The translations under genes and the position numbers were made by a program. A DNA stretch of 64,000 bases from Beroe forskalii (lineage: Eukaryota > Ctenophora > Nuda > Beroida > Beroidae): contig WFMF01000282.1 of assembly GCA_011033025.1 (NCBI GenBank), positions 1 to 64,000 of the forward strand, read 5' to 3'. Every line of letters begins with the position of its first letter. The stretch's first letter is position 1. Below the pieces are notes generated by a model that saw only the letters and a program-made list of their open reading frames with translations, had not been told where the DNA came from and did not search any database. This document shows positions 9,634 through 52,100 of this stretch, one piece after another.

Positions 9634-9820
9634 ATCACCTGCTATTTGACTCACCCAAGAACATTGAGGCTTGAATTGTCCCTCTTTTTTTCTGATAGTT
9701 GATTTGTTTGTATCTTTGGCATTTAAGGAAATAATCACCTGTTATTTAACTCACCCCAAGAACCTTGAACTCTCCTTCCTTTTCTCTGATTTGACTTGTT
9801 CTTATTGGCATCATAAGGAA
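9634..9820 (-). repeat. Tandem duplication of the photolyase 3' exon end and donor-like site
   Basis: The last 85-90 bases of the photolyase frame (9733-9820) recur just downstream on the gene strand (9634-9724) with changes. Both copies contain GTTCTTGG followed by GTGAGT and AAATA(A/G)CAGGTGAT. The shared GGGTGAGT has the form of a strong 5' splice site. Confidence 0.8.
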
Positions 9821-11336
9821 CATGCCTCTGTGTACTAGAACTTGAATTTAAGTCACATGAAGAATTGGCAGAGGAGGTTTCATTTGAAAGAGGAACTGCC
9901 ATTGAAGTATACTGGGAAATATATTTGAACACATCAAATTTGTTTTTAGCTCCATTAAATGACATGTACCTGATCTTTCCATAAACTGGTCTTTCACCCC
10001 ATTTAGGAGGATCATGAACCCCAGCAATTGACCACATTACGCCAGCAAAACCATTAGGATCACCTCCATCTATACTGTAATGGTCATTAAAATAAAGTGC
10101 ATACTTTATGGCATTATCTGGAGTATCTGACCACTCAAGAATCTTCTTAGCCCAGTACATTCTCATGTAACCATGCATTTTACCCTCTCTTTTCAACTGA
10201 ATTTGGGCAGCATTCCAAAGTTGGTCATGTGTTTCAGCATTATCAAACTGTTCTTGTGTATAAACATATTCTCTTTTGGTGCTTCTATGCTTGTTAAGTG
10301 TTTCAATTGCCCAAGAAGGAGCTCCCTCTAAATTGTCATAATTGCTGTTATAGAAGCAGTAATTGTCAGACATTTCTCTCCAAACAATAGCTTCATCAAC
10401 AAATTTTGAAACAGATGATGAGTATTCATCTTTGTACTTCAAAACCTCAGCAACAACTTTTTGAGCACTTACATGACCATGATTAAACCATGGAGACATA
10501 TGGGATATAGCATTAATTGTGGGGTTATTTCTCTTTTCACTGTATTCCTTAAGTCCTGTTTCAATGAACTCCTGCAATTTTAGGGAACCATGCTGGAAGC
10601 CTGGTTTAGCCCAGCTTGATTGAGTTACAGACTCATCAACATTGATGGTGTTTTTCATAGCATTCCAGTCGATAGGAGTGGCTTTGAAAGTACTTTTAGT
10701 GGGATGCATCTGAACCTGAGGAAATTCAGTAAAAAATTCATCAAACTTTGATAGAATTCTTTGCCTCATTTCTGTAGCTCTTGGTTCTTCCATGTGAGAA
10801 GCTTCCCACACTGGGACTATGTTGTGGCTATCAACTTGATATAGCAAGCAGTCATTTATGCCCCTCAGCTCCTTTTCAAGCAAATGAATTTGTTTTTGAT
10901 ATGACCTCAATGGACTAAAATCCATTATGACACACTTTATGTTAGATTCATTCACAAAATTCTTAATGTGTTTGTGGATGGATGAATTATTACTATGAAA
11001 AAAGTGAAACTCAATTCCATATTTTTTGCACTCATTTTCAACTTCTTCAAGTCCACCAAGGATAAAACTCAATCTCCTCCTGGTGGCCTCTGGATTAGTT
11101 GGCCATTCTAAATTGAAACTACTGACTATGTGAAAGGGTAAATTCTTTTCCATTGCAAGTTTCTGTCCAAAAATCACAGACCAATTATCATGCAGCCTTT
11201 GGTCACGATGCATATAATAAACAACACCACCCACATCTTTTGATGATAAATCAATATTACATCCATCACCAATTATGCATCTTATCCTCTTGTAATTAAA
11301 ATCTTCATATCTACGTACATTTCTCAAAAACTGCAT
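9735..11336 (-). CDS. PHR: Class II CPD photolyase (deoxyribodipyrimidine photo-lyase)
   Basis: 533-residue frame in one exon. Class II photolyases bind FAD and use light to split UV-induced cyclobutane pyrimidine dimers in nuclear DNA. The N-terminal photolyase/Rossmann domain spans about residues 35-180 (GGVVYYMHRDQRLHDNW at 36-52). The C-terminal FAD and DNA-binding domain spans about 270-475, with the class II motifs HGYMRMYWAKKILEW (388-402), DGGDPNGFAGVMWSIAG (423-439) and ERPVYGKIRYMSFNG (448-462). Residues 478-533 are a Ser/Asn-rich then basic tail unlike the usual class II end. The frame runs through TGG G|GTGAGT at 9749-9756, so the true exon may end at 9755 with the last five codons being intron. 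A possible acceptor (TTTCCTTTAG) directly precedes the ATG, so an upstream exon cannot be excluded. It is divergent from INTS6, 2.3 kb apart. Confidence 0.92.
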   Translation of the reverse strand: MQFLRNVRRYEDFNYKRIRCIIGDGCNIDLSSKDVGGVVYYMHRDQRLHDNWSVIFGQKLAMEKNLPFHIVSSFNLEWPTNPEATRRRLSFILGGLEEVENECKKYGIEFHFFHSNNSSIHKHIKNFVNESNIKCVIMDFSPLRSYQKQIHLLEKELRGINDCLLYQVDSHNIVPVWEASHMEEPRATEMRQRILSKFDEFFTEFPQVQMHPTKSTFKATPIDWNAMKNTINVDESVTQSSWAKPGFQHGSLKLQEFIETGLKEYSEKRNNPTINAISHMSPWFNHGHVSAQKVVAEVLKYKDEYSSSVSKFVDEAIVWREMSDNYCFYNSNYDNLEGAPSWAIETLNKHRSTKREYVYTQEQFDNAETHDQLWNAAQIQLKREGKMHGYMRMYWAKKILEWSDTPDNAIKYALYFNDHYSIDGGDPNGFAGVMWSIAGVHDPPKWGERPVYGKIRYMSFNGAKNKFDVFKYISQYTSMAVPLSNETSSANSSCDLNSSSSTQRHVPYDANKNKSNQRKGRRVQGSWGELNNR

Positions 11337-11339
11337 GCT

Positions 11340-13300: not shown

Positions 13301-13608
13301 TGCATGCGCAGGAAATCACGAACGGTCAGGTTGTCCAATCAGATGGCAGAGCATGGCTAGCGTGATGGCTGTGTGACGCAACGGATGCCCACGTGACCGT
13401 GGTGTTTCTTCTAGCTGCTCCTGTTGTACAGTTCCAGCAACAGCTCGTTGTAGCTGTTGTGTTTTAAGTGCTCCTCAAGGGATATCAAATGACAAGCACC
13501 CTCCACGTCCCTGATCCGTGTGAGCATGCTATATTCACTCATATCCCCTTCATTTCAGTTCCCTTTGATGCAACTTCACTCTAACCTTTTGAGGTCTCAT
13601 GAATTGTG

Positions 13609-13912
13609 ATGGCAATTATCCTGTTTCTCATGGACACCAGTGGGTCAATGAACCAGCGGACGTGTTTTGGACCTACTTACCTTGACTACGGAAAGATTGC
13701 AGTGGAGAACTTTTTGAAGGTAGTTGCATTCTCGAGCTCCTCTCTCCGACCCTATATTTGTGATGATAACTTACTTTCAGGAAGGGGTATCTGATGACTT
13801 TCTCTCCTACTTTCCATCATTTTCTTCTTTTCAGATACGCGGTAAAGACCCAGGCAATTGGAAGGATAGGTACATGCTGGTGACGTGTGAGGATTTCCCT
13901 GCTGCGATCAAG
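13609..13912 (+). CDS. INTS6: INTS6 exons 1-2 (vWA domain start)
   Basis: Exon 1 is 13609-13719 with donor AAG|GTAGTT; exon 2 is 13835-13912 with acceptor CTTTTCAG and donor AAG|GTATTG. Both are phase 0. They encode the MIDAS strand and GxDRYMLVT-like strand of the von Willebrand A fold. A GTG codon at 13606 is in frame but ATG 13609 fits the family. Confidence 0.93.
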
Positions 13913-16900
13913 GTATTGGAGGAACCCCTTGGTTTTTTTGATGGGCAGGTATTCAGATGGGTTTGTTTTTGGCGTCCCAGCCCTACCGAGCCGAGTTTTG
14001 CTGTCGAATTTGATCTGCGTTGCTGATGAATGTCCAGTTCCACGGTGTTCTGTGGCCTTGTTGTGTCCCCATCCATTTCTAGTTTCTGTCATGAAATCAA
14101 CTTATGAGATTTTGCCCTCTCCAGACTCATTAGGATTTGACCTGAGTGTGCACAGGAATTCCAGTTTATATGGCTAACTCCTCTTTCCATCCTGTGGAGA
14201 AAAGTTGACACCGACCATCTGATAGGCAACCTGTTTCCATCCAGGCCCCTTTGCATTTTAAAGTTGATGGCATCGAAATGAGTTAGGCATTTCTGAACAT
14301 ATTTGTTGATATTTTGGTCTCAGTGTGGATCGTGTGAAGAGTCCCCCGCTCAGCCGGAGATTCTTCCATTCCTTCTTCGGCCCTGAGAAATTTGAAAGAG
14401 ATGATAGGAAAATTATTTGCTTCAAGCTCTTAAATTCTCTTCTGTATAAGAGCATTCCATGCAGTTTGCACACTCTAAGGGGGAAGATTTTCGGATTTTC
14501 ATTGTATCTGACAGATGAGAACACCAGCTACCTGTAGGGGGAAGATTTTCGGATTTTCATTGTATCTGACAGATGAGAACACCAGCTACCTGTAGGGGGA
14601 AGATTTTCGGATTTTCATTGTATCTGACAGATGAGAACACCAGCTACCAGTAGGGTTTTATCCCATGAAATTTCAAAGTTGACCGGCTGTTCAAAAAATC
14701 GTCATAAATGAGGATTTTCAAATTTTAATTTCTGATGTCTCAATCAAAATTTGGCTTGGTGCAAAGTTCACTTTTATGCCCTAGTTTTAAGGGTCTATCG
14801 CAAAATTTGTAGGAATAGTATAATTTTAAAGTTAATTTTAAAGTTAATTTTCGGCGTAAGTTTGCGCGCGTACTGTAATTTAACAGGCAAACTTGAAATT
14901 AGAAAAATTCATAACTTTGGCTAGGAACAATATTTCGACATGGGGTAAAAACCTACTGGTAGCTGTCGTTCTCTCCTAATAGAAACAACAAAAATCGAAA
15001 ATCGACCTCATACACCCAGCCCGCCCCTAATTTTAATCATTGACAGTTTCAATCATTACAATTTCTCATTTGGCAATTTCATATATTTTACACTCTTCAA
15101 TTGACAATTTCATACGTTGTACACTCTTCTTTATTACACTCTTCAATTGACAATTCCATACATTGTACACTCTTCAATTGGCAATGTCATGCATTGTAAA
15201 CTTTTTGATTGACAATTTCATACATTGTGCACTTTTTAATTGACAATTTCATACATTGTGCACTTTTTAATTGACAATTTCATACATTGTACACTCTTTG
15301 ATTGGCAACTTCATACATTGTACACTTTTAATCGACAATTTCATACAATGTACACTCCTTGATTGGCAATTTCATACAGTATATACTCTTTGATTGGCAA
15401 CTTCATACATTGTACACTTTTAATCGACAATTTCATACAATGTACACTCCTTGATTGGCAATTTCATACAGTATACACTCTTCCATTGGCTATACATTGT
15501 ACAATTCACACTTTTCTATTGTTGGTTTCTCTTCAACGAAAAGTTTTTTTTAAAACTAAGATTGGCTCATATCTCACCTCGAAAAAATTGCGTCTGCAAA
15601 CTATTCTTCTATCAAGATGTATTCTGTCATTCAGGATTATATTTCCTTCCTTACCTTTTAAATGCTTAACTTTTACACATCATTTTGACACGCTGCATGC
15701 TAAATCGCTGCCAAGTTTCATTCCATTCCATTGCAGTGTATACGTCTTGAATCATTGGGAAAATTAATGGTGATTAATAATGGGACACAATTGATTTCAT
15801 TAAAACACGAAGACATTTACAATCACTGACAATGGGAGAATGGACCCTGAGCACCTAGGAAGCGTCGATTAGCATTGTATTTCTATGCCCAACTTTGATT
15901 GTTGGTAGGTATATAGGGGGATATAATGATTTAGCGTTGTAGTGATCTTCAAGATTAATTAAAAAACTCAAATTTGTATGCCTTTAACAGTGAATGTTAC
16001 GCTCTATGAAATAATTCTCAATCCAAGTGTAAAACTGGGGTAAAACTGGTCGTAGCAGCCACAAAACCTGATTATATCACGGTGCCCTGGTCACTGGTGA
16101 TTTAAACTCTATGCGTGCCATACCTATGAAATTGCTACTGCAAATAGCACAGGTGCAGGCTCCAGTCCCCGTATATATTGTGTAATCAATGCAGCAAGCT
16201 GATTGGTTTAAGTCCCCGTATTGCTGCGTGCTGATTGGTTGAACTGCATCCGTCGATAATGATCTCCAATTAGTGGCACCTAACCTGTCACGTGGTTCTT
16301 TATTATGTGCTGTTAATTTTAGTTGTTAATTAACGCTTGAATGGCATAATATTTCCGAAGGTTTTATTAGTAAGTGTCTAAGCGTGTAATAAGTACTTTT
16401 GATTTATTTTATTTTATTTATTATTTGTTAATTGTGGTTGTTATGTAGTCCTCATGTAGTTAATTCAAGTTGTTGATTTAAGTTGTTGTTTATTGAGCCT
16501 TTAAAGGATGTGCAAAGAACTAAGCCCGTGTATTGCAGTCTGTTACATTGAGTAGATTCTAATGTAGGTGTAATGTAGGTGTAAAATGTGTAATGTAGCT
16601 ACCTACATTACACACACTCTGTCCTCTACAAATAACACATTTCTGGTGTATTTCCATCTACATACAGCACAGATGGTTATTGGTGTACGTATTGACCTAA
16701 CATGTACATTGTACACATTGTCAATTAGTTTCCGACATCTAATCCTTGGCATCATGTACTCATTACCACTACTTCGATAATTAATGCCGTTTACGATTAA
16801 TAGGCGTTTAAAAGTGAATGCATTATATGGGTTTTTAACCGCATTGAAACGCCTACTTTTTCAACATGACGTATTATATGGGGATAGAATTTCGCGATAC

Positions 16901-19900
16901 TTACCGATTCAAGTATAATCGATGCCTGAATAATAGGTTGAATGAATCTGTAGATAATTTTCTAGAACACTTCTAAATTTGAAAGAACATATTACAATAA
17001 CACTCTTTGTATGTAAACAATGTACATTTTACCAGGGCCGCCAAAATGAAAATGACTTTGGGCCGGCCAGTGGCAGCCTAATACGGCAAAAAACAGAACG
17101 TATTTTTTGGCAGAAACAGCCGTATTTTCCTCCCCGGTTTTGAAATTTTGCTTCAATTTCAAATCAGTAGGTAGTATTTTCACATATTTTTCACGTATTT
17201 GACGACCTCGAAATTTTTCGTTTTCACTTTTCATAGTTAGTCACGTATTTTGTACAAAAATAGCGTATCCTTCTCCAGCAGCAAATGCGTCATATTTTTT
17301 GACGATTTGTTTTGGGGTCTATCCGGGAGGTTTAGCCGTAGCGCCGCCTTTCGAAGGCCATGCATTTAGTTTAGGGATTTTCTTTGGATCAATTGTACCT
17401 AAAGCACCTGCCCACTTCCATGAGTTAAATAAACTCATTACGAGCTTATTTTTTGTACATATATGGAGGAACTCCAGATTTATTAGGACATTTAGGCAAT
17501 GTCCTCAGTTATGACAATAAATGGTATAATAAGAAATGGAACGATTGTTGATGGAGTTGAATACTGTATACGTACATTGTTTCATTGTTTTAAAGACCTA
17601 CTTGGAACATGTTTGGAATATGAAGATTCAACATTGTACCTTGTACAATGTATTGTACACAGTAAAATTATATATTGTACATTTTGTGTTTGTCCGGAAA
17701 TTTATAGAAAAATGTATAAAACGGACAAATCGGACATGTGCGTTTTTCAAAAGCGGACAAAACGGACATGTTCATTGTTCTTTATTTCCGATTTGTCCGT
17801 TTATCCGCTTTTTGAAGCGGACAAAGCGGAAATGTCCCTTTTGTCCGCTTTTGTCAGTCAATCTTTGTATCCATAGAGGCCGTGTTCATTGTTCAAAAGT
17901 AGGCGGTCCTTTTAAGAACATTATAGCAATGTGATGACTCGGTCATCTATTGAAAGGAACTTGAAGCATTCCTAGAAATGTGTGTGTACCTACGTACGCA
18001 TTGATAATACCATTAATAATGACGTCATCTATGCTCGATTGAAGAAAGCTGAACGTACAGAAAATGATCAATGATACAGCGGTTGATTTTATGCTTGATT
18101 AAATGGACGAATTCATTACTAACATGGTCAGTTGTACGGGACGAATAGTGCGTAGAGCATATAATATCTAGGTACCTACTCAATTCCTGTTGACTGTTCA
18201 TTCATCATTAAATGTATAGTATTGTACTAGGTACTCATCACTTTTGTTATCTGTTCAGTGTTCATTCATCATGGAATGTATTGTATTGTAATACTTATAT
18301 GGGGCGTAAACTGTATCGTGTCTATGGGGCGTATAATGTATAATGTATAATGTATACACCCTATCTTGTCAAGCACCAAGAAGTGACGTATTACAATTTA
18401 CACCACGCTTGAAGCGGTGAATCCAAAACGTTAGTGAGTGGTGTAAGTCATGGCGCATTGTACTATACAATATACATTGCATTGTATATGGGTATCCGGT
18501 ATGTACACTGAATCATATCCTATATACATTTCATATGTACAATTTATAGATTGTACATTGTACATTGTATATTATGTATAATACACTGAGTACGGACATT
18601 GGACAGTATTAGTTTCTCGTGTGTCTAGAATACTTTCACTTCACAATCGTCCATGGTCCAATAAGGCGTTGTAAGTCCGTAAGTACTCGTTTATTCTGCG
18701 TCAGTGCTCCTTGTGTATCTTTAGACATTGCGTCATGTTCATATAAATATTCATATGATGATTTATGGCAGTTAAAGTGTATTTTGTGACTCAGAAGTTC
18801 AGTTGAAATGTTGGCGTATGGTTTTATGAATTAGTGACAAGGCGCTCAAAAGAATCCAATGTTTATTTACATCAACTTACCACCTTGAACTGTGATAATG
18901 ACGTCAGCATAACCGCCTATGTCTCGTGTCAGGCAGGTTATCGATGATAAATGGATGAAAAATACCATCTAAATGTGAATGGTGAACATTTTAATCTAGA
19001 TATCAAAATTCTCCATTATCAACTTTGTTTCTAGCAAATACTCTTGTACTCTTCTCTGATTGGTTCACGCCACTTGTACTCTTCTCTGATTGGTTCACGC
19101 CACTTGTACTCTTCTCTGATTGGTTCACGCCACTTGTATTCTTCTCTGATTGGTCCACGCCACTTCTACTCTTCTCTGATTGGTCCACGCCACTTGTTAT
19201 CTTCTCTGATTGGTCCACGCCTCTTGTACTCTTCTCTGATTGGTCCGCGCCACTTGTACTCTTCTCTGATTGGTCCACGTCTCTTGTACTCTTCTCTGAT
19301 TGGTCTACAGCACTTGTACTCTTCTCTGATTGGTCCACCCCACTTGTACTTTTCTCTGATTTGCTCACTCCACTTGTTATCTTCTCTGATTGGTTCACAC
19401 CACATGAGGTCTTCTCTGATTGGTCCAGGCCACCTTATGATCTGGGTGCGAGAGATCTGTGGTCAGTGACGGAGTAACAGCAACCAAATTGAAAAAGGTC
19501 GCTTGCTAAATAATACTGTTTCTTTTCATCAATACACCATTATAGATCATGATATGGTCGTCACTTTCAAAGCGCTATTATTCTTACGTGCTACCTAAAA
19601 ATGTTGGATGTTAGCCAACGTACTAGAATGACGGGCGACGAGAAATAGGCGGTTAAGATGACGTCATTATCATAGCTCAATGTAGTGAGTTGATGACGTT
19701 GAACCGCATATTTTTCTTACGCGGCGTATAGAATGACGGGCGACGAAATTGATACCTCGAACATCTAGCATGATATTCAATATAATAAATACATCACTAT
19801 AACAGGTCGCACTGTTGAGAATGATGACGTCATTATCAAGAATTATAATGGTGAATTGCTGTTGTTAATACGTAATCGTGTGAAATATTCGTGAACGAAA

Positions 19901-22900
19901 TGTATACGCTTCTTGATCTAATGTATAGAAGTGTTTTTTACACTCATTCATGTAATGAATACATTTCATGTACATTTACACGTGTGTTCGTACATACAAG
20001 CTCGTATACATATTCCTATGAATGTACACTGAATGTGTACACTGTACTGTATACCTTACAAGAAATGTTTATTTGAAACAGTAATTTGGGGCTCGAAATT
20101 TCTGGTGCTTCGAAAATATGGGGATTACTCATGTTAACATATGATGATGGCGTCATATTCAAATTAGCGAACTACAGGTTTCGAAAATACATAGGGATTT
20201 CTTCATAAAATCCCCAAATTACGGTCCCCATATGTCTCAATAGATAGGTATTCACAGCGTGTATATACACTTATGTCTGTTTGTTATCTGGCTACTTAGA
20301 GTTAACTGATGGAAAGAGGCACTGTAAAGTATTAAATTTATACGCCTCGCGCGAGAAATAGACGGTTCAGCGTCATCAACTCACCACATCATGATATGAT
20401 AATGACGTCATCCTACCCGCCTATTTCTCGTGCGCGGGGTTTAGTTATGATGCTTTACCAAACATTCCGATGATCTGTTTTTGTCACTGAAAGTTTGAAC
20501 GAAGAGGCTGACAATTGGCAGCAGAGCAAATGTTAATTTTAGCTGATTCTATCTTGAAGAAAGTTATAACTTGGCAGTCAATATGAAGGGACGAAAGAAT
20601 TATTTGCATCTGCAGTCACTCATTGTTTCGGGGGTTTGGAAGTCAAATTATTTGATCATTTCGATAAAATAATGTAAAGCAGGAAATCCTCATTTTATGA
20701 TCCAGACTTCAGCCAAAACATTTCATGATGGATGTCAAATCACATGCACATTGATCATGAAATGTTGTCAAAATATTCTCATATAACATCATAGCGTATC
20801 ATTGGTACAACTGATTTTAAACCATTTTATTTCCACCTTTCATTGGGCATAATGCATCTTGTCACCATGAGGCTGTCCTTTTTCTCAGATTGGAATTCAC
20901 AGAAACACGCCTTTTACTCTGAAAGCTAAAATCACATACGCAGAAATTGCTGTCACATGACGCAATGCCTGGGTGGTTCCCTCTTTAGAGACAAAACGTT
21001 GCATTATTTGGGTGGTTCCCTATTTAGAGACAAAACCCTCCAGAGGTGTTTCAAACAACAGACAAGAAAATATAATGGTCATGCATAGGATCCATTTATT
21101 CCATTATCATCAGGCTGCAGAGGAAAAAATTCGGCCAAAGATGGATTGATGGAGAGTTTCGTATTTTATGGTCAATAAGCTTTCCTTTTTTTCTGATAAA
21201 ATTTTAAAATGGGTAAAAATATATCAGCATTCCTCCTTAGTATTGATTAAGGGGTGAAAAGTGGCCCTTCCAAAATCAAATAGCCTCAATCATTGCCTTG
21301 ATGCTTCATCCGTCAGCAGAACTCACGAAATATTACGTAATCGACTTGGGGAGGGGTTTCAGATGATTTCGCTTTATGTTACAAATGCAAAGTTACTGTA
21401 AACTTGATTACGTAATATTTGAACGATTCCCAATATATATATATTGGTCGAATTGTAGAGGTTGTCTGTTGTACTGTAGCTGTAAACATAATTCAATTCG
21501 ATTCAATTCAATTCAATTCGATCCAATTCAAGTCAATTCAATTCGATTCAATTCCATTCCATTCAATTCAATTCAATTCAATTCAATTCAATTCAATTCA
21601 ATTCAATTCAATTCAATTCAATTCAATTCAATTCAATTGTAACCCTCATCAGGTGGGTTGGAGAGATGTAACCCGTGACCAGGGCCCCAACGTTTACTTC
21701 AAAGAACAGCTAACTCGACTAGTAGCTACTTCTATGACTAATCTGGGTAAGTAGAAACCCATAGGACGAAGTTGCAAATATTGAACTGCCCATAAAATCA
21801 AGATGAAATGAGCTTTTGATAAACTTTTGGCAATTCACCTAAGGTTATTACAGTGCACGATATTATCAAGTTTCATGAAAATCAGACCATTGGAAGTTTA
21901 GAAAACTGGCGTTTATAACATCGTTTAAATAATCCTATGATGCGTCTTTTCTAGGTGGGGCTATCAAGTGTTCCCTGGATCTCCTCAATATTCACAGAGT
22001 GCAGAACGGACTGGACAACTACGGTCAAGTAAGTCCTAATTCGAATTAAACAATTAGTGTTTACCTATTTAATAGTTTAGTGATAGTTGTTATTGTTTTC
22101 TTGAAGAAGATTGGAATCATGAACGTGTACTTGTAGTTGGCGTAAGTTATCATTAATAGGTACAGTTTTTGCTCAGGAAAACAAACCTTGGCTATTAGTA
22201 AACCGGAGTTTAAGGCATGTCTCTTGTTTTGGAAATGACTAATTGTCTAAGGCACGGATCGGCTACTGCGTACTACGGAGACACGCCAATAATTAGAAAA
22301 TTAAGCCGTTTCCTAATTTTATTAGCATCCACAGCGTCTAGCCCTACTTCCTGAAAAACGTGCATAAATTCAAAAATATATTTTGTCATTTGACCCGCGT
22401 TTTGCAGAATTATGATTTGAATCGCAGTAAAAGGTAGCCTTAGAAATTTAGAATTATACTTTTAAAATTAGGTGATACTTAGATTTTTGGACTTCATTGA
22501 TTAGAAAGCATGGTTAATGAGATAGAATTTGGAATGCATTGACCCTTATAATTTTTGGGTAGAAACCCGTTTCTGTTTTCCTAACGGTGCCCCTTATTAT
22601 TTCAGGGCAGAAACCCGTTTTCCTAACCTTGCCCCTTATTATTTCAGGGTAGAAGCCCGTTTTCCTAACCTTGCCCCTCATTATTTCAGGGTAGAAACCC
22701 GTTTTCCTAACCTTGCCCCTCATTATTTCAGGGTAGAAACCCGTTTTCCTAACCTTGCCCCTTATTATTTCAGGGTAGAAACCCGTTTCTTCTGGAGCCG
22801 GCTGTTGTCGTCATAATATCAGACGGGTGCAAACTAACCAACACCCAAACAGTCACTGAAACTGTGAGTACATTTTAATTAAAAACTTTCAAGTAGATAT

Positions 22901-25900
22901 GACAAATAATCTGGCTCTGTGTTGAGAAAAACACTTTGTATTATAAACACTTGACACAATGGCTAAATAAGAAGTACAACAATCAATGATTGATAGTAGA
23001 GTAGATTAAGAGAGTATGACTATGATGCCTCTACAAATTGTGCAGAGGTAACAGCATCATGTTTATTGAGGGACACGCCTATGTGTAGAGTGCATAGTGC
23101 ATACAGCTATATCGTTCAGCCGGAAGGTGCAGAATTAGTATACACAGCCAACATATGTTAGCAACACGGGTCCGGGGTCACATACAATCATTAGAGCTGT
23201 AACATGGTGTTTCAAACTGGAAATGGAAGATTATTCATGTGCTAATTGCAATGTTAATTTAACGGAATAATTGACCGGTTTTATATGTAAAAGACATATT
23301 CCATAGAGTGTAGCCCGTTAGTGACAGTTATTTAAGTATATGTTAAACGGATGTAATATATCGGGTTTTTGGAACGGAACGTTGCTAGTGTCTAGTAAAT
23401 CAAATTCATTCATCACCAAGCACTAGAATTTGTCTCTGACTATCAAATCATATTTGATAGGCTAAACCTAAATTGGCAATATTCAATGTTAAAGTAGGGG
23501 AATCGATATACAGATTATGCTCCCAAGTTATATTCTAATGTACCAGAGCGAAACAGGACATGATAATAGACAGTCTGTAGAATTTGATGGGTTAATTTAC
23601 TCAAGTTTATTTGGTTATATATGGACACAGCTCAAGATATGGTGAGCGGACAGAAGCTCTCCCCCATAAGCATCTACGTGTAGATTAGGCCGGATTAGGA
23701 TTCGATTTGGCCCGTGTCCACTTGTCCAGGGGGCATGAGGGCTGCGACCGCCCTCGGAAAAATAGGAATCTCCCAAAATTTTGCTTTTGTCATGGAATCC
23801 CAAAATCTATCACTTATCATTTACCAAGTTGAAATGACGTGACTATCATGATGCACGATTACGAAATGATGACGTAATATCCACTCACACTCCTCCCCCA
23901 TATTGCAAGTTTAATAAAGTAATAAGTTCTCGCTTCTACTCTACTACCATATTCTATACATTGTACAGTAGATGTATATCAGGAAACATTGTAATGAATG
24001 TATGTTTAATGGGAACCTATTTGCGCTTGGAAAGTGATGATCGGAAATAGAAATCGTAGTAACTTCACTTGACGGTTATAGGGTTATAGGGTTATCGTCA
24101 TTTTTAAATGCTGGTCATAAATTTCAAATTTAATAGTTGAGACTCATTAGATTGAACGGTAAGCGAAGGAACTAATGAGTTGAAAGTCTTTTACAGAGGT
24201 TAAACAGACATCGGTTAATTCCATATATGGCATTTCAGTAGGTACTAGGACACTAGGTACCTATAATCCTTTCTCGTACCACGAGATTTACCTGTTTGTA
24301 TTTATAGTGTAGGTACATTCCTTATCTGCGAAAAAAGGGTTTATATACATAGTTTGGACTATTTACTTTAGGAACATTTTCTACTTTTTGTATACTGCTG
24401 TGTACTTTAGGTACATTTTCTACTTTTTGTCCACGGTTGTGAGCACTTTAGGTAGCGTATAATGCTTGTGGACAATTCATTGTATAAGTTCTAGCAATCT
24501 GAGTGAGAGTTTTGTTAATAATAACCATATAAGTGCTACGGGAAGACATCTTCAAGTTTTCACGATTTTAAATGCTATCATTTACAGTGTCATTCGCAGT
24601 AGTTGACAATCTTCGACATTTGGGGCTAAAATAATAACCCAGCTTCCTGCAAACTTTAAAATCGAATTGCATTGTCCAGCCCATACCTACCTACCTTTAT
24701 TGAAGAATTTAATTAAGTTATGTACTAATTAATTTAGTAAGCGATTGTGTCACCTTAATTAGTGCCTTAGTTTGTCTTTCCATGATCAAATAAACCCCAC
24801 TAAGGTACCACCATCGAAAACATTGTCTTTCAAATATACCTATTTCTAAATATGGACCTTGGGCATTTTTCGACGTCAATGTCTGCTTTATTCAAGTGGG
24901 CGGGCAATAAATGCTGACAATTTGATATTCTAACTTTATAACTTGAACCTTAAACTGTTGTGTGAAATTAACATTTTACTGCAATTGATATGCATGCCTA
25001 AACCGGCTCGAAAATTAGGCCTGGCGAGTTACCACGTGTAAAAGCCACCAAAACAAATTTAAACCCATCTCATTGCAAGGACAATCCAATACCGAATCTC
25101 ATTTCATGGTTTAGATCAATATCCCTGTTACATAATGGCGTTCAAGTTAATCAAATACTGTATAAGCAAGTCATGTTATTAAAATTTCATTTGACCAAAA
25201 TTGGCAGGCCCTAAACTTAATCGTGCTTACTTTTACGTGTCCTTAGGTCAAGGATTTCTAAGTTGTTTTTGCCCTTAAAGACTGTTTCAATAAGGGTTTT
25301 ACAACGCTACTAAAAGCAGTCATTTTCCGAATGTATTGATGGACAAATTCGGAATGTATATAGTAATTATTAATTAGATTTCGCATCAATCTGGCCGATA
25401 ATTGGTGTTTTGCGTCGCGCGCGGTTACAAATCTGTACAAAAAGGACCTAAATCGTCCGCATCTATTTCAGTGCATAATCGTTGTACTTTAATTTGCGCG
25501 CTATGCGCGTTCTTTCATTGTTTTAACACGATATTGAGGCAAACAATTATCATGAGAGCAATGGAATTTCTTGAAAATTCGTTTTAACAGCAGATTAAAT
25601 GTGCTTATTCAGATAAATATTCGTTGCCAAGTGTAAGTTACAGTAAACATGGCTTAATTCCTACGGAAACGGGGGAGTCTATATGGTGTCAGTCTGTATG
25701 ATGTCAGACTGGTGTCAGCATGTTGTCAAACTGGTGTCTGCATAGTGTCAGCATATCGTGAGACTGGTGTCAGCATGTCGTCAGACTGGTGTCAGCATTT
25801 CGTCAGACTGGTGTCAGCATGTCGTCAGACTGGTGTCAGCGTGTGGTCAGACTGATATCTGTTTGGCGTCAAACTGGTGTCAGCGTGTGGTCGGACTGGT

Positions 25901-28900
25901 GTCTGTATGGTGTCAGACCGGTGTCAGCATATCGGCAGACTGGTGTCAGCATGTCGCCAGACTGGTGTCAGCATGTCGACAGACTGGTGTCAGCATGTCG
26001 CCAGACTGGTGTCAGCATGTCGCCAGACTGGTGTCAGCATGTCGCCAGACTGGTGTCAGCATGTCGCCAGACTGGTGTCAGCATGTCGCCAGACTGGTGT
26101 CAGCATGTCGCCAGACTGATGTCAGCATGTCGTCCGACTGGTGTCAGCATGTCGTCCGACTGGTGTCAGCATGTCGCCAGACTGGTGTCAGCATGTCGCC
26201 GGACTGGTGTCAGAATGTCGTCCGACTGGTGTCAGCATGTCGCCAGACTGGTGTCAGCATGTCGTCCGACTGGTGTCAGCATTTCGTCGAACTGGTGTAA
26301 GCATGTCGTCCGACTGGTGTCAGCATGTCGCCAGACTGGTGTCAGCATGTCGTCAGACTGGTGTCAGCATGTCGTCAGACTGGTGTCTGTATAGTGTCAT
26401 ACTGGTGTCAGCGTGTGGTCAGACTGGTGTCTACATGTTGTCAGACTGGTGTCAGCATGTAGTCAGACTGGTGTCTGTATGGGGTCAGACTGGTGTCTGT
26501 ATTGTGTCAGGCTGGTGGTTGTATCGTGTCAGACTGGCGTTTGTATGGTTTCAGACTGGTGTCTGTATGGGGTCAGACTGGTTCGTGTATGGTGTCAGAC
26601 TGGCATTGCAGATCATCAGAATGGTGTCAAATGACTATTTGACTATTTTCAGCAGAAAACGCCAATACGATTTTAATTAATACCCTTCTTTTTCTAAGTT
26701 AATTCCATTTCAGTTAACCTTGCCGATGCATCCGTCCTTTCCGGGTAGTGAACTTACGAAGGATCCGTTCCGATGGGACCAGAGGATCTTCTCTATCGTG
26801 TTGCGGTTTAAGGGGAACGTTGATAACGACTTTGTTGACCACGCTACTTCAGATTCCCAGATAAATGCTATGTGTGAGGTGACGGGAGGTAAGGCACCAT
26901 CTCCTGACAAAAGTTTAAAACTCCGTAACAACTAATATAAGCATTTCAAATGTATCAATGTGACCCTCGCGCACTCCCCCTTTTGAATGAATTATCTCTC
27001 ACTCACCATCCCTTTGGGTCACCCCTTTAACTTTTATTTACCTCTTCAGGCCGAAGTTACACCATTTCATCCTTCAAAAGTCTCCTCCAAGTCCTGGAAT
27101 CTATCAATCAGAAGGTACTTAGCGGTGTGGTCATCCAACTCGAACACCTGCCTTCTGAAGCTGAACGGAATCTGGCTGCTGACGCCTGGAGGGCTACCCG
27201 CCGCATGATCATTGTCAACAAAACTAACAGCGCTCAACTCGCCCATTGGCCGATACCCGAAACTTTTTGGCCGGTGAGAGAGATCCGGCCGATACGGACA
27301 GCAATTCCGGTCATTTATTTTAGTTCGGAGAGTAAGAAAGTGAATGTTTTGGATAACTTACCATTCGATAAGTATGAGTTGGAACCCTCGCCCCTGACTC
27401 AGCATATTTTGGAGCTACGACAACCGACATTTTGTTGGCAAACCTTCGTCAAGAACTCCGGCAGAGATAAAGGTAAGGTTTTATTCATTGTGTTTTCAAT
27501 GAATGAATTTTATAGTTATTTTGTTGTGTAATCTATAAAACTCCCTTCCATGCATTGCTGTGAAATACTTCTTCGTATCCATTTCATTCTCGTTTAGTAC
27601 TTTCAAAATGCACCCCAGACTAACTCGATAACTCCCAGGAATCAAATGTCCGTTCGGGTACCTGAAAGCGAGCGTTAAAGGAACCTGCGTTAATCTCTTC
27701 GTCATGCCGTACAACTACCCCGTGCTGTTTCCCCTGTTAGAAGAGTTGGTGAAGGAGTTAAGGATGCAGCCAACTAACCAGTGGATAACGGATTTCAAGA
27801 ATTATCTGGCATCGTGCCCACTTTATTACTTTGGGGTGAGTATATCTGGCATCGTGCCCATTTTGTTACTTTGGGGTTCCGGGTAGTTTCCGGGTAGGTT
27901 TCTATTACTTTGGGATGAGTAAATATATCGCAATATATACAATATACACAACCCACATGTACATTAAGTATACACCACTCAAACACTATACATCCGCATG
28001 TACATTTCATATTCTATTTCCACGGGTTATTTATAAGGATTACGTGGCTATCATTATTCGCAATAACTTAAGTTTCACATAATTCATGTTTAAGATCATG
28101 CCATTTCCATCACTCGTTATCTCCATACGCCCTGAGGTCTTGGCCCCTGCATACTCCCATTCCTTGCACATCTACTCATTTAATCATTTCATGGGCATGT
28201 GTTCATTCGATATGAAGTGTATATATAGCGCTGTCACTTGTAAAGTTAAATTGCTTCACATCTTCTATTCTGACGTGGTGTCAGCTGTCTTTGCGAATAC
28301 AGATCATGTACTCTCGCTCTTATCACAGTTATATCACCATAAGTGACGTCATTATCATAGTTTAAAGTGGTGAGTTGATGACCCCGTAGTAGCATTGTGC
28401 AGGAAACAGAATGCACGCATTGGAGTTTTATTTTAGAGCTTTATATGTCTATGTATAGAATCTATACTAGAATCAATACTAAAGATATACCTGTATACAT
28501 TACATCATCGTGCATTACATCATCGGAGTACACTTTTGTGAGTTTCATGTACGTTATATACATCCCATTATGGCTAAACTAGCAAGTACCGAAATATGAA
28601 GTACAAATATAAAGTATCTATTTATATTTTACTGCTAAAATATATAATTGGTAGTCATTGTGATGAAATGGTGAGACACTATACTTAGTGAGACTCTACC
28701 CAGTGACTCACTATCTAGTGATTCACTGCTCAGTGACTCACTAGCTAGTCACTCACTAGTTTGTGACTTACCAGCTAGTGAGTAACATTGTACACGGGCC
28801 ACTGTCTCCCCTGTTTAGTAGTAGATTGTAGGAATGTGTGCTTCCTGATTGGGTGCCATGAGACCCTGAACACAAGACCGAACTGAAAAGGACATATTTG

Positions 28901-35530: not shown

Positions 35531-35811
35531 GGGGCGTAGCCAGTTTTTTGCAGAGGGGGGGGGGCGGGTTGCATTCAAAACCTGTTTATTAATGTTATAA
35601 TTTGTAGGCTTCAAACTCTCATTATGTCAAAATGAACAATTTCTTTCAAAGGGGGAGGCGGCCGCCTCTGTCGCCTCCCTCCTGGCTACGCCCCTGCTGA
35701 TAGAACAAAATTTCGTGCTGAAACTGGTAAAATGTGCACTAATTTCTTAATTTCAAAAGCAATTTATAGATTCAAACTTTCAGACAGCTCCAACTATCAT
35801 CCACTCAACTT

Positions 35812-42814: not shown

Positions 42815-42940
42815 TTAGCCAGTCAGATGCTAGAACGGTCAAATTATTAGCCAATCAGATGCTAGAACGGTCAAAACATTAGCCCATAAACGTCAGCCAA
42901 TCAGATTTGTAGGACGAAGAGAAGATCAGCCAATCAGAAC
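42815..42940. repeat. AGCCAATCAGATGCTAGAACGG repeats at the RGG gene 3' end
   Basis: Four or five copies of AGCCAATCAGA-type words, two as AGCCA(A/G)TCAGATGCTAGAAC. They overlap the RGG gene stop region on the other strand and resemble the repeats after the INTS6 stop. Confidence 0.75.
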
Positions 42941-43100
42941 ATCAGAACGTCTCGGTCAAGGTCGTTGAAGCCTCCGCCACTTGAACTGCCCCCAAGTCGG
43001 CTAGATGAGCTGGAATTCTGAAATTATAGGACGTAATGAGCTGGAATTCTGAAATTATAGGGCGTTATGATGAGCTGAAATTCTGAAATTACAGGGCGTT
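42934..43100 (-). repeat. Tandem copies of the RGG gene exon 8 acceptor
   Basis: On the gene strand, ATAATTTCAGAATTCCAGCT leads the real exon 8 (from 43017). The same acceptor plus exon start precedes it at about 43048 and 43083 (TGTAATTTCAGAATTTCAGC), spaced 31 and 34 bases. Exon 8 itself (43017-42934) ends at TGA. Confidence 0.88.
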
Positions 43101-46100
43101 TTGATAGCATACCAACTCAGACCTAGGACAGAGGACGGCAGATATATGCGCACCTGCAATCGGTGCCGATCCACCACCGATCAGCGCTGATAGGCGTCGA
43201 TCCACCGCCGATCGGCGTTGGATCGGCGCCGATTACAAGGTGCACATCTGCCCAAAGGACTTTATTACAAAATGAAGAAAAATTAAAAAAGAAGTTTAAC
43301 CTACCAACAACAGTTCGTTCTGGCGACTCTGGATGTTTTGCAGCTGTTGGAGTTGTTTCTGCAGGAGTTGCTGGTTCTGGGCCAGGAGCTGCAGCTGACG
43401 AACTTGCGTGTTCTGGTCCTGATGGAATAGTGCAGGGTCAAGAATGAGTTGTATAGGGGAGGGGTGGAAATGGTCCTGATGGAGTAGTGCAAGGTTAGGT
43501 GTGGTCCTGATAGAATAGTGCAGGGTCGGGCAGGGCGTAGTCATGAGGTTTTTAGGCGAGTTACATTCAAAAACCTGTTGAATGGCTTATTTTACAAAAG
43601 GGTGTCGCCTCCCCCCTAGCTACGCCCTTGGGGTCAGGACTGCTGCTGCTAAGAACAGTGTAGCGATTCATTCTATTGACCCTATTTGTGAGTTCTTTTA
43701 AACTACTAAAACCAGTCTAGCGATTCATTTTATTGACCTTATTTGTGAGTGTTTAACAACTACTGTTTCATTACATGTGGTGTTAGCATATCTGGGTCAA
43801 TGCGGTGACCACATTGAATCACGTCACTTTAAAGTTACTTCACGGGAAAGGTACCGTGACAACATTGGCGTTGGAGTTGGTCAAGTGAATCAAATGGTCC
43901 ACAATATCATATGAATTTTCAAAGTTGGCTCCTGTCCCAAAAATGGTCAAAAATGACGATTTTCAAAGCTCATATTTTCACTTCTGGGGCTAAAATCAAA
44001 AATCTGTCTAATCCAAAGTTTTGTTTTATGCCCCAGAACATAACTAACAAGTTTCAAGGGTTTTCCTCATAAAATGTTGAAGATAGATTTTAAAGGTTAT
44101 TTTCAGCAAATTGCGTTAGAAGTTTGTGCGTGGACTGTAATTTGCTAAGAACAATATTTTTCCATGCGGCAAAAACCTACTGTCAATCTCCTACATCAGA
44201 AATTAAAAAAACAGAAATCGAGAGAAAATGTCTTCTCACCTGTAACATAGTGGCTGCTCCTCGCTGAGAAATTCTGTTGCTTGGAGTGTTACTTCTGGGT
44301 GAAGGCTGGGGTCGGCCAATGTTACCCTGAAAATATGGAGTGACTTGTGGAGATCAAGAAAAAACTTTGTTTTCTCAGTGTACCGTATACTCAGCTCGTA
44401 TAGTGATTATTGCGTTAAATGATTGGTAAGTGACCGTTAAGGTATCGGTTAGTGTTTTTTGAACTATCGGAAATCGACCGCTAAATGATCGGTAACTAGT
44501 AAGTGACCGTTAAATGACCGGTAACTGGCCCCAAAATTATCGGTAAGTGAGTGTTAAATGATCGGTAAGTTATCATTCAATTATAGGTAAGCGACCGTAG
44601 AATGATCGGTTACTTACAATAAACTGTGTAGTGATCGGAAACTGACCAACTAAAAGCATCAAAATGTTACATTCCGCCATAAAATAAAACTCTTCTCTCC
44701 CACTTTACGCGTGTTACAATGAATTGTGTTGACGAAAACCAACAGGCGCTACAACAACCCAAACCACACAAACTGAACATGACCTTATTATTCCATATAT
44801 GGTATAACTGGAGAAGCGTGACACTCCATGTATAGAATAAAGAGGGGGAGAGGGGGGCACCTACAGGTGATGGTGGTCTTCTCACCAGACTATAAGGTGT
44901 ACAGAGGGAGAAAAGAGAGTGTCGACTGTTTGGCAATGGATTACTACTTAACGGGGGATGGATCTACAAGAGATCCAGACAGAAACCCCAGCACGGGACC
45001 TCCCGCTGTAGGGTCCCTGTTGCCAGTGCTACTGCGGATGGGAACGAGTCCCGTACCTCCCAACGCGGACCAGTGTGTAGGGAGCACACTGGGATTGCCG
45101 TTGGGTAATGGATATTTTGTACCTTCAATGCCCTCTAAAAGTGCTTTAAGCAGCTCCCTAACACCCCCTCAAATCATATCTTTTTATCCTGCATTTCATC
45201 ACCAGTTCACTGGTGAGTCATATTCCGTGATCAAGTATAGAAATAACCGGGTTTTCTGTCAGACTTGTCACTTAACACTTGTCACTTCACACTTCAATAC
45301 TTACACTCGCAGAGTCAGGATATAAGTGCTGCTTGTAATTCCAGCAGCTCTACCAAGTGCTCACTTATCTGGCAGAAAGTGTTGAGAAGACTGAGTACGA
45401 GCTCGGTGATTGGTCGGGAATCAAAATTAACTGACCAATCGTATGCTTTATTGAAGGAGGTCACGTGATTTAGGTACTGTGTACCCCAATACAATGTGTG
45501 CTTAATACAATGTGAGATCAATACAATGTGTACCTGATTATCGTGTTTAGTATCGTGTAAGTGTGTACGGCACTGTCGCAGCCTCTCACATTTTTAAACA
45601 TTATCTCTCCTCTTGACACGTCCATATCGTGAACATAGCAGTATATCTAGCTTTAAAACTCGAATGTAATGAAAGATATGATATCACGCTGTAAGGTTTT
45701 AACATTACAACACATAACGAACAACTCATTTTGCTAGGGATACACTCTTGTTATCGCGGTGACAGATAGCATTTACAACATAGAATATACGATGGCAGAT
45801 TGGCAGATAACATGGAAATCTAATACGATATACATACATTCATACAAAATATATACATGAAGTGATAAAGAATTTCTTAAAGTACCTAATTCCTTGATAT
45901 TGATAGTGTGTACAATGCAAAGGATGAATTATGATATCATTCAGATTTTTATGGAAATAATTTAAAATCTCGCCATCTCTCTATCTGAAACCAGCACGCA
46001 GACTTCAGTGAATACAATATAAGTTTTCAGCTCTATTATAAGATTCACAGGTGTCGCGACTTCGAGAAATGAGATTCAGAGCGAAATTTCCGATCGTGCG

Positions 46101-49100
46101 GCGCCAAATACGTACGTGCATATACTGTTATTAAATCAGTATCACACACGTACGAATGGCGGTTTTGTGGAATTATTTCAGACACCGATCTCAGAGCTGG
46201 CGACACCTCTAAAAGAAATCTAACTAACGTTTCCCTCATTTTACAGTACAGAAAACAGTCTGTGACACTTCATTCATTTTCCCTAAACGTCTGCTACACA
46301 TCTGATGTGAATGGAAAATGTCGTATGCGACACATGACGTTACACACGTTACATTAAACCACGCAAAACAGAAAGGCAGGCATCTGTGACGCCATTATCA
46401 GAGTTTAGAATTGTTAATTGCTGACGCGCGTATATCAGCTAAGAGCTACTCACACCTCAAGATCGGAGAGGCGGAAAATATATGGAAAAACATTAAACCT
46501 TTTTCCAGGAAATATAGATGCTTGCTTGGAGAGGAGAGAAATTTAAATAATGCGATGCCGTGAGAAAAATGAGTCGTAACATAATGCATAATAGAACATA
46601 TTTAGAAGTTTTTAGAGAACTAAAATAGAATGAAGTTTATAACGTCTGAGTTGAAACGTCTGAGTTGAAACGTCTGAGTTGAAACTTTATAACGTCTGAA
46701 TTGAAACTTTATCTCCTAATCTGTCGTGTTGGCGTATCTTGTTTGCGTTGGCAAAATAATGATTGGAAATTGAGATCAAATTTTGTATGTAGGACCTTAG
46801 CTAACATGCGCTCAGAATAAACATATAAATAAGCGGTCGAAATGACGTATTTACATTGCGCGCGCTGCCACACTGCGCGGGGTATAATTTTGTATAGCTC
46901 ATATAGATATGCTTCATAAATATCATACTGTGTTATGTTTTGTATATTAATTATGCACTCACCGAGTGCATGGGATAATGACATTGTACGTGCTCAGCAC
47001 TCAGCAGTGTAGTTAGACAGTTTAATAGACATCCAATAGGCATTATGCAATAAGTATTACTAATTATTACAAGCACACACACCCCAACACATCATGAACA
47101 AGGTCCCCTAGCCTTATTCTCAAGAATAATGTGGAACACCTGGTTCAACTGGTGAGTGGTGTAGGAACAGTGAATGAATCCAATGGGACTACACGACACA
47201 CGTTCCTCCCCCCCCCCTATTTTTTACTTCTTTAAGGGGGCTATCTGCCATGATTTCGAAAGGCCCTCCGTAGAGAAACCCTGGAGAGCCTTGGCGACTG
47301 GATTTAGGTACTTCTGTTTTTCAATCTTGCTCTCAATCTTTGTGGAAAGCATTATGTCTTGACCCAAGAAAGTAGCCATGACGCTGCATATATGCAATAA
47401 TATTATCGCATAATACTGGACATAATACTATGAGTTCTAGTATATGCTTATGTAGGTGATTATCTTATCATTATGCAAATTATCATGAGTATGTTGTGTG
47501 TGTACACATGTGTGTTGTGTGTACACAGCAACGCGTGTATAGAACACACAAATCACTTTGTTCTTTTAGTGTATTCATGTGCGAGTCATATGTGATCTGT
47601 CAGACCGTCACATATCACGTCATCTCTTTCTTTGGCCTTGGCCATATATGCGGGTCTTTATTTCACACAATTTCATTTATGATGGTATAAATCACTACAG
47701 AGTGGAGAGTTGGTGACGTCATTATCACATCACCAAAGTGGAGAGTTGATGACTTCATTATCACATCATCAATAAGACTTGTCATTGAAATGCATATTGT
47801 GTACTGAGGTTGACGAAATACTACTGAAATGACGAAAATATAGTGACTTCATCGTGACAATACAGGGTGGTACATGTCGGAGAGGAACCGAGAGGGTGTT
47901 TTCAATACACTTTTTTTACGTAAGACGAAGGGAGGAGAGGGATTTTCAAAAGTTCAAATGATGACAGGGGGATGGAGAAATATATTTTTTCACCTATGAA
48001 GTGTTATGAAATCAATCGATCTCATCTCTATCAACAAACCACACATAAAAATGCTGTTATTTGATATCAGCTTATCACGTACTTCTATAATGAAACAGCT
48101 GGAAGGTGGCTATGTTTTGAAATGAAGGAGTATTTTTATGTGTTTCGTGGGAATTTAATCTCAAGTGGAGTGTTTGAAAGGAATTTGATGATGTCATCGC
48201 AATATCCGTCACGGGCATTTCATCAATGGAGAAAGTCAAAAGTTTGGTTTTTATCACGAAAGGTCAAATTACAACACTCATGAAAAATATAAAAGCAACA
48301 AAAACCTCACAATAAACTTCAAAAACTAAAAACTGAAAGCAAAATAACACAACTCAAAACACGACTAACAACAACAGACTATAACACCACAACTACAACT
48401 AACACCAACTTACTCTGTTATTCCTGAAGTTGTTGCTCCTCATTCCACCTCTAGTGTTGCCAGTGTTGTTGTTATTGTTGTTATTGTAGTTAGGGTTGTA
48501 GTTGTTACCCCGGTAGTTGCTTCCTCCACGTCTGTTGTTAGATAGACCCCGGGTGAAGTTGCCTCGGTTGTTGTTCAACCTGAGGGAGTTATAGTTTGGT
48601 TAGAAGAATCAAAGAATTTTGATTAGTTTTGTTAAGGGCAAGAATCGAAGCCTAATTTTGACATGCCACGTCAAATAAAGGGACAAAGAAACGGGAGATG
48701 TTTTAGAGTATCGAATGAAGAAAAATAACAAAAAACCAAGAAAAAACAAGAAAATGCATCAAAAAGGAAAGGAATAAAGAACAAAAAAACAAGCAAAAGA
48801 AGAATAAAAACAAGAACCACCTTTTGGGAGTGTAGTTGCTGTTATTGTTGTTGTAGTTGGACCTGTTAACAGCGTTGTTACCCCCTCTTCCACCACGACC
48901 TCCTGAAGGAGATAATAGGGTTCAATGAGATATTTCAGTGCGTATTAGACGAGGAAAAGTCGAGATTAATATAGATGTAGGTCGAACATCAACCTGCATC
49001 GTAAATATCAATGATGTCTCAATAATGGTCAAATAGATTGTCAAATGAAATACAAATCATCAGCACAGAAGCACTAAATGATATAACATTCTCATCTGAA

Positions 49101-52100
49101 ACCCCCTCCTAACCTCCTCTGCCACCACGGAAAGGCTTGCCTCCACGGTTCCCTGCACTGGCAAAACTGTTGGTGTTGTTATTGTTGTTGTTGTTGTTGA
49201 ACAGCTTTCCTTTGTTGCCTCTCGTAGCACCTGAATAAAGAACATTTAACAGATATTTCTCGATTGCACCTCAGGTGTTTCTCGGATACACCTCCAGCGA
49301 GAACATTTCGTGGAATTAATCCACGCGTTATAAAATAACCCCCGACCTAGGCGACTGCGTTGACAACCAACTAAATTGGGCTAACTTCAGTGATCTGTTT
49401 GACACCACTCACTTCTGCCCCTTGCCTTGACACCACTCACCTCTAACCCTTACCTTGACACCACTCACCTCTACCCCTGCCTTGACACCACTCACCTCTA
49501 CCCTCTGCTTTGACACCACTCACCTCTGCCTCTTTCCTTGACACGACTCACCTCTATACCCTGCCTTGACACCACTCACCTCTGACCCTTCCCTTGACAC
49601 CACTCACCTCTGACTCTTCCTTGACACCACTCACCTCTACCCCTTCCCTTGACACCACTCACCTCTGCCTCTTGTCTTGACACCACTCACCTCTGCCTCT
49701 AGCCTTGACACCACTCACCTCTGCCTTGACACCACTTACCTCTGCCTCTTGTCTTGACACCACCGGCTCCACCACGGTTAGGTTTGAAGCTCTTCTTGTC
49801 CTTCTTGATGATGTCATCTGAAGCAACATGGATTTAGATTAGAATTCAAGACAAGTCGAGCACAAAAAGTAGACGGTTGATCGGATTAATTACCACCAAT
49901 TAAAGTCAATCAGTGAACTTCAACCGTCTCATATTTGTACACGACCAGTGAGTCCGAGAAACAGTCAGCGATCCTTGCAGCCATGATATTATCATGATGA
50001 TATCAGATCGACTTGGATTGAAGGACCAAATTATTTTAGCACTTTTCTCTGTTATTCGTTGACCCATATGTACATTCAATTGTATGTTTATGAAAATGTA
50101 GAGAGATGGCAATAAGTTTATTGTGCACTCAGGAATATTTCAGGCAAATGTACATTTCTCTTTTATCAACCTGAAGTCCAACGCATATAAATATAATTCA
50201 ATGATTTCCGAACCCCAAAAAACTAAAGATAACAAAGCTTGATCAAGTAATGCCGTATCCATATAACCAAATACTTGAGTAAATAAAATAAATCCTACTG
50301 CCCCCATTATTGTATGGCTATAGCATAATCTCTGCTCCCTTCATTGTATATATGTATGGCAATAGAATTTAATCTCTCAGAATTCACTCTCAGAATTTCC
50401 CCAGAGCATTGCCAGTTTGTACATTTAGTTATATGTTGGCGGAATCCTTTACTTATTTCAAACCATGAGGCTCCACAATTAGAGGGGTGGCAGGAGAAAA
50501 CTAGATGACCCGAGGTATCATATCAATTCTTCACTCTAAACCATGATAAACACGTCAAACTCAACAGCTAACCGTCCTTACACGACCTTAATTCGGTTTA
50601 ATGTCCCTAATGCTCTGTAAAAGAATATATTTACGGTGGCTGTAGAAAATATTGCAAAATATACTTCATCTTAGGAGCAATTATACATGCAGATAGCATA
50701 ATTTATTACATACATATGGCATTATTTATTGCATACATATGGCATTATTTATTACATACAGATGGCATAATTTATTGCTTCTCAACAATGCAGGGAATCA
50801 ATGATTGGTAGTATAGTTATGGTAGTTTAGTTATATGATTGGTAGTGTAGAAGTTAAACATATTATCATCGAGGTTATGGTATTATTAGAGAGAGCAAGC
50901 TATTGATAGTACACCCATATGTATAGGGTTCATCCCCTCCCACTGGTTTAAACAAAAGAATTGCTCGGTAAATAGTGGGCACGAGATGAAATGATTCCGG
51001 TGGCCCCAAAACAACTGATGAGTGTAAGTCATTATATTCAAGTGGTGTAGGTTAAAAAAAGAACCTCCCATGTATATTGCACTATGAAAGTTCTTCCATT
51101 AACCTACAGTATGCTCCTATATGATCAATTTACAATATTATACATGTGTAATGTGTTGAGTACATTACATAAAATGTACATTTTACATTTGTACAATGTA
51201 AAATTGTATGGACTATGTGCATATTGTTAATTGATCAAAGAAGCACAGGGTAATGTAATTTTAATCCACAAAACACAGTAGAAAGTTGCGGTGATTCGAT
51301 CAGCTCATTCTCAGTTCTCACGAACCAGAGGATGAAGGTGTACAAATCTAATTATGCACACTTGATGGTGACCAAGGAGGCGGCAAGTGGCAATGAAACG
51401 GTTATTATATACCACAGTGGCTCATGCAAAGTATCAAGGGCGTTAAATTACAGCTTCATTGTAACAATGCAGCTGTACAATTACAATTTACAGTTGTATG
51501 ACTTTATGAATGTTCCTTTCATCAAGATATTAGATAAGACAGTTAAAGAGTCCATTCAATTCTCTTGAGTTTATTAAAAAAATATGTTACAAATTGCAAT
51601 GTAGGTGACCCTATGCATGTATGTATGTATGTAGGTGACTCTAAAAGTTTTAAATATACTCACAAGAATGGAACCTCCTGGTATAAACTTGAATGTCTTG
51701 ACTGTGGAAGTCTTGGTTCTTTGACTGCCAACTTTTGCAGGGTGAAGAAGAGAAGGGAGCTATTGGGTCTTTCAAAGCCTTTGCATCTGATTGCCACGGG
51801 GACTTTCAAACCAATGCTTGTCAGAATAGTGCAACTTTTCCATAGCCATGATAAAATTATTGTCAATCTTCATTTTTCCATACAGTAGGACTTAGGTGTT
51901 TTCAAGGGTCTTTCTGATCGTTCCTTTATCGACGATGGTCATCCTTTAACATCAATCAGACATTCAATTCAATCCAATTACACAGTGAGTACTTTTGATT
52001 GCTCATTCATTAATTGATAACATCTTTTGAAGGAGTGACGACTTTTCAAGTGGGACTTAAGAGGGATGGAGTTGATCTTTGATGGCAACCAAGTGTTGAC

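Follow-up and report, generated by a model that had tools for sequence, protein, structure and literature searches.

Mirage-like tandem copies of exon edges at nine splice junctions of INTS6 and a neighbouring RGG gene

We analysed a 64,000-nucleotide stretch of eukaryotic genomic DNA (contig WFMF01000282.1, positions 1 to 64,000; hereafter the window) and found head-to-tail copies straddling the exon edge, here called ladders, at 9 of the 48 splice junctions examined in two neighbouring genes, INTS6 and an RGG-rich gene, here called the RGG gene. In our view these ladders are probably minisatellites of the mirage type, that is, random-phase tandem duplications across existing junctions that were tolerated and then expanded or shrank. 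They belong to a structure already named in lancelets, and what is new here is an unusually dense example of it.

Each junction, donor (D) or acceptor (A) with its exon number, was scored by the best ungapped copy that spans it by at least 3 bases on each side, within 300 or 600 bases. Scores of at least 22 were reached at nine junctions, in INTS6 at A5 (85), D8 (34), A10 (30), D11 (23), A12 (46) and D14 (25), and in the RGG gene at D2 (75), A7 (47) and A8 (60). The 13 junctions scoring at least 15 were each compared with 300 random far flanks put in place of their own. The same nine beat all 300 swapped flanks, and the other four tested junctions failed to do so (P 0.02-0.16). The highest scores of the swapped flanks, a sample of random flanks and not an all-against-all comparison, were 16-21 against the 23-85 observed. 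The nine ladders are beyond chance as local duplications, and both edge types are hit, with ladders at donors (D8, D11, D14 and RGG D2) and at acceptors (A5, A10, A12, RGG A7 and RGG A8):

22540..22789, plus strand, INTS6 exon 5 acceptor ladder built of 42-bp units, with 6 copies of the exon edge, of which 5 have AG
27801..27924, plus strand, INTS6 exon 8 donor ladder, 3 copies; the real donor follows 27835, the second copy is weak and the third has lost GT
30454..30712, plus strand, INTS6 exon 10 acceptor, a single decayed copy 202 bp upstream
31085..31162, plus strand, INTS6 exon 11 donor ladder, 3 copies
31254..31336, plus strand, INTS6 exon 12 acceptor ladder, 2 copies at a spacing of 56 bp
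32709..32762, plus strand, INTS6 exon 14 donor ladder, 2 copies at a spacing of 34 bp
49399..49763, minus strand, RGG gene exon 2 donor ladder, 13-14 copies of 28 bp with 12 in-register decoy donors
43411..43527, minus strand, RGG gene exon 7 acceptor ladder, 3 copies
42999..43099, minus strand, RGG gene exon 8 acceptor ladder, 3 copies of ~31 bp

An earlier note on this DNA had named eight ladders in three unrelated genes. Seven are present at modelled exon edges, in these copy numbers (A5 6, D8 3, D11 3, A12 2, D14 2, RGG D2 13-14 and RGG A8 3), and the ladders at INTS6 A10 and RGG A7 had been missed. The eighth, a repeat at a photolyase frame, has no demonstrated exon end, so the three genes become two.

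The repeated unit has no fixed phase: its exon share varies between 0.08 and 0.75 (Kolmogorov-Smirnov test against a uniform distribution, P 0.15, on nine hand-entered values), as would be expected of random breakpoints more than of an inserted element. Introner elements, which are dispersed copies of one element, have in common with the ladders a repeated sequence tied to splice sites, whereas here each junction has its own unit.

The junctions were taken from two gene models:

13609..34146, plus strand, INTS6 gene model with 18 exons and 34 junctions, from homology and modelling
42942..54762, minus strand, RGG gene model with 8 exons and 14 junctions, from open frames and splice consensus

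INTS6 is identified by its match to PDB chain 7cun_F (E 1.5e-135). Its domains follow in the expected order, a VWA domain (VWA_2, PF13519, 7.3e-10) and then the INTS6 beta-barrel (PF25462, 1.3e-50), and hits in exons 1-8 are 35-60% identical to human INTS6, which would be low for a lancelet without deciding the matter. The join of exons 10 and 11 (30773 / 30952) is one base out of frame as written, which may be a sequencing error or an unusual edge; the junction positions are unaffected by it. A Pfam search with the RGG gene gave no matches, and its edges therefore rest on open frames and splice consensus.

From what can be read directly (which copies there are and where they lie, how the decoys score by consensus, and how copy number differs between two arms of INTS6), a simple course of events can be proposed. 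In a minisatellite-rich genome, short tandem duplications (units of ~16-60 bp, once 202 bp) would arise at random phase across existing junctions, probably by slippage or unequal exchange. Such a duplication would be nearly harmless because the exon-proximal junction stays: the exon-proximal copy would still yield the normal mRNA and the extra copy would become intron. The arrays would then vary in length like other minisatellites, giving a longer intron with leftover decoy splice sites. The exon-proximal site is likely the site used, and exon definition would favour it. By homology to human INTS6, the sites used at A5 and D8 are those of the exon-proximal copy; these are the only two junctions at which homology fixes the protein.

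Differences in copy number can be seen within the window. Its left arm (2-7255) repeats part of INTS6, exons 9-18, in inverted orientation; the right arm holds these exons at 28874-34158. The arms are 93.7-99.4% identical in exons 12-18 and 65-84% identical, with many gaps, in exons 9-11. Among 286 codons compared in exons 12 and 14-18 (exon 13 has a gap and was excluded), there are 32 synonymous changes and 4 non-synonymous codons. Three ladders recur in the left arm:

1555..2093, minus strand, left-arm INTS6 exon 14 donor ladder, 16 copies of 34 bp
4985..5147, minus strand, left-arm INTS6 exon 12 acceptor ladder, 3 copies, found by script
5282..5343, minus strand, left-arm INTS6 exon 11 donor ladder, 2 copies

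The extra left-arm copies that had been reported at A12 and D14 are indeed present. Copy numbers in the left and right arms, which may be alleles, paralogues or the product of an assembly fault, are 16 and 2 at D14, 3 and 2 at A12, and 2 and 3 at D11. For alleles and paralogues alike, these differences look like turnover of the minisatellite kind. Could the ladders be an assembly artefact instead? The part of the left arm that holds exons 9-11 (5208-7255) looks damaged, with homopolymer-like runs, and these exons show many gaps relative to the right arm. But 8 of the 9 laddered junctions lie outside any visibly damaged stretch, scattered substitutions distinguish the copies, and each junction has independent units. 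We consider an artefact hardly credible.

Most of the in-register decoys are, by consensus, about as strong as the real site. The scoring matrix was built from the 39 other junctions. In all, 24 in-register decoys were listed, and the left-arm D14 array adds another 15 copies of GTGAGT. At A5, the four decoy AG acceptors score 10.8-11.4 and the real one, at 22773/22774, 11.4. RGG D2 decoys score 9.2 in 11 of 12 cases and 6.6 in one, against 10.2 for the real donor. The corresponding values are 10.5 and 11.0 against 10.6 at RGG A7, 8.7 and 7.3 against 9.0 at RGG A8, and 10.1 against 11.9 at A12, while at D14 (7.7 against 6.1) and D11 (5.5 against 2.5) the decoy outscores the real site. The earlier suggestion of redundant or decoy sites agrees with this picture: tandem duplications recur across existing junctions, and most copies seem to retain usable splice signals. 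A branch-like CTAAC motif lies 22 nt upstream of AG in all five A5 copies that have AG. It is absent from the A12 decoy and from one RGG A8 decoy, so that decoys are not always complete 3′ sites.

If used, 22 of the 24 in-register decoys would shift the frame or bring a stop; the A10 decoy was judged on its length only, 202 nt being a frame shift. The two that keep the frame are RGG D2 +21 (7 residues) and RGG A7 -57 (19 residues). The 42-bp unit at A5 preserves the frame, but use of an upstream A5 acceptor would always bring a stop because the branch-like CTAAC supplies an in-frame TAA.

Do tandem duplications prefer splice junctions? A rival explanation holds that exon edges are a mutational hot spot, where composition, transcription or R-loops raise the rate of tandem duplication. 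By coverage there is no such excess, since 9 of 48 junctions (19%) are duplicated and so are 18.5% or 19.1% of intron positions (the latter from 5202 controls). Controls near exons gave 22.4% and were set aside; they are not relied on because positions inside the junction arrays were included among them. Counting was also done by event, an event being a cluster of duplicated positions. Wholly exonic clusters were dropped (5 of 55 at threshold 22), leaving 50.

Several observations weigh against random landing and tolerance as a full account of the ladders. Nine of the 50 event clusters cross a junction, against 2.67 expected with random seeding of a unit of the observed period (P 0.0006) and 3.24 with short and long introns handled separately (P 0.0015). 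This roughly threefold excess suggests that random landing with tolerance may not be the whole story. Poor decoys exist, namely the A10 copy at -202 (3.8 against 9.7 for the real site) and the D8 copies, which fall below the cut-off for listing. The hexamer GTGAGT is nearly invariant in the two longest donor arrays, where it holds none of the 22 differences in one (P 0.014) and 1 of the 38 in the other (P 0.0012), that one being the real site, and such a quiet hexamer could mean that decoys are kept.

With a slightly different cut, 7-9 clusters crossed a junction, and P ranged over 0.0003-0.016 across thresholds under the seed-unit nulls; a whole-array null of the same count gave three smaller P values. 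In INTS6 alone, 6 of 29 clusters cross a junction against 1.89-2.31 expected (P 0.006-0.007). When only arrays called by Tandem Repeats Finder are taken (31 arrays, merged by hand), 3 of 31 cross a junction against 0.94 expected under the seed-unit null, which is not significant (P 0.065), and two whole-array nulls gave P 0.0245 and 0.148. The event null is a better model of how such repeats arise than the coverage null. It is also post hoc, because it was adopted after the coverage null had shown nothing, and its P values flatter because the window had been flagged for its ladders. The threefold excess in the window is suggestive and not established. It may mean that selection against duplications of this kind is weak, or that duplication is locally biased. 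The absence of a fixed phase in the unit is a further point against a hot spot, and together with the coverage and Tandem Repeats Finder results it leads us to consider the hot-spot explanation unlikely.

The earlier note had proposed that the repeats prefer splice sites and had envisaged a genome-wide comparison with random positions. Over the 48 junctions of the two genes, such a comparison favours a preference by event counting only. The wording that the repeats sit on splice sites was too strong, as 41 of the 50 clusters in the two genes cross no junction.

Another rival explanation is that decoys are functional and are kept by selection, for the tuning of splicing or for making unproductive transcripts. 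The scores of most decoys would fit this, as would the quiet hexamer and the A5 units with their branch-like motif, tract and AG. Yet copies within an array are not independent of one another, and several non-junction arrays vary just as unevenly. Neither donor array has an unusually long invariant run (P 0.32 and 0.43), whereas one non-junction array gave P 0.003, and some non-junction arrays equal or exceed the donor arrays in column dispersion. For these reasons selection on the decoys is not claimed. The frame shifts and stops that nearly all in-register decoys would bring fit neutral debris equally well, and the large copy-number differences between the arms also argue against function. 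Maintenance of the decoys by selection is very unlikely in our judgement.

The interpretation as mirage-type minisatellites draws on comparison with known systems. Tandem duplication of exon boundaries as a route to introns is not a new idea: lancelet ‘mirages’ were described together with a model of intron gain (PMC3087553). Lancelet (Branchiostoma) genes with mirages include Adh3 and the globins BflGb6 and BflGb9 (PMC3087553, PMC3902484), and PGBD5 and troponin C (PMC3902484). Like the ladders, mirages consist of minisatellite-like tandem copies spanning 5′ or 3′ exon edges (PMC3087553, PMC3902484), and many copies carry AG/GT signals. Reverse transcription PCR pointed to regular splicing there, with 6 units in one haplotype and 3 in another (PMC3087553); here copy number differs between two arms, alleles or paralogues. 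The units in the window are mostly ~16-60 bp, similar to those of Adh3 (10-72 bp) and of one PGBD5 array (60 bp), whereas the globins and the other PGBD5 array have larger units of ~108-160 bp. Nine junctions in two adjacent genes are affected here. In human segmental-duplication genes, minisatellites also overlap exon edges with variable copy number; such repeats alter transcripts and can form new introns (PMC2812944), of which none is seen in the present gene models.

The ladders might also be read as steps towards new introns through duplication across AGGT-type sites, a proposed route that the earlier note mentions. Mirages have been proposed as a source of new introns (PMC3087553), and in potato the duplication of an intron-exon edge gave rise to an intron (PMC4974935). 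Intron gain of this kind and the ladders both involve tandem duplication that carries splice signals. In intron gain, however, the duplicated AGGT is exonic, while the units here straddle existing junctions, and neither the INTS6 nor the RGG model contains a newly created intron. We find this route highly improbable as an account of the ladders.

Other features of the window were recorded as well. The photolyase repeat mentioned above is as follows:

9643..9800, minus strand, duplicated 60-nt stretch in two copies at the end of the photolyase frame, second copy score 50

The open frame runs on to a stop codon, with no exon end or downstream exon shown, and the repeat is not counted among the exon-end ladders. 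The DNA photolyase frame itself (9738-11363, minus strand; Pfam 2.3e-16), which we take to be class II, has its best PDB matches in 8oet_A and 2xry_A and ends in a non-conserved tail. A 3.1-kb intergenic minisatellite of 21-bp units of the TCCACTCAGCGTCCAGTAGGA type occupies 35800-38969, and ~1 kb of GCAATTGCACGTGCAAT-type repeats, which also match themselves in inverted orientation, lies at 40248-41258. A dispersed element of ~100 bp, rich in TGACGTCA, occurs at 19638-19730, 20338-20438 and 30062-30162 in both orientations with 84-87% identity. Three separate short arrays (19043-19433, 34193-34302 and 42811-42884) have a CCAATCAGA-like core in common. Whereas INTS6 is rich in introns, the minus strand carries long open frames at 57687-59045 and 59943-60992, with a RhoGEF-PH pair (Pfam 3.4e-28) and C2H2 zinc fingers (1.1e-18). 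An Rfam search gave no matches.

A bolder reading is that splice junctions are a true hot spot of tandem duplication, perhaps outside lancelets, with about one in five exon edges laddered, introns growing from their edges, and strong decoys tolerated or kept. We regard it as doubtful. If it were true, the genome would be a natural laboratory for intron evolution and for the choice of the spliceosome among many equal sites. Strong decoys at about one fifth of the examined exon edges would provide a natural test of splice-site choice, and the ladders would give a direct view of intron edges growing and shrinking. Should the host lie outside the lancelets, mirages have a wider distribution than the cited papers state; should it be one of them, INTS6 and the RGG gene would be two additions to a short published list.

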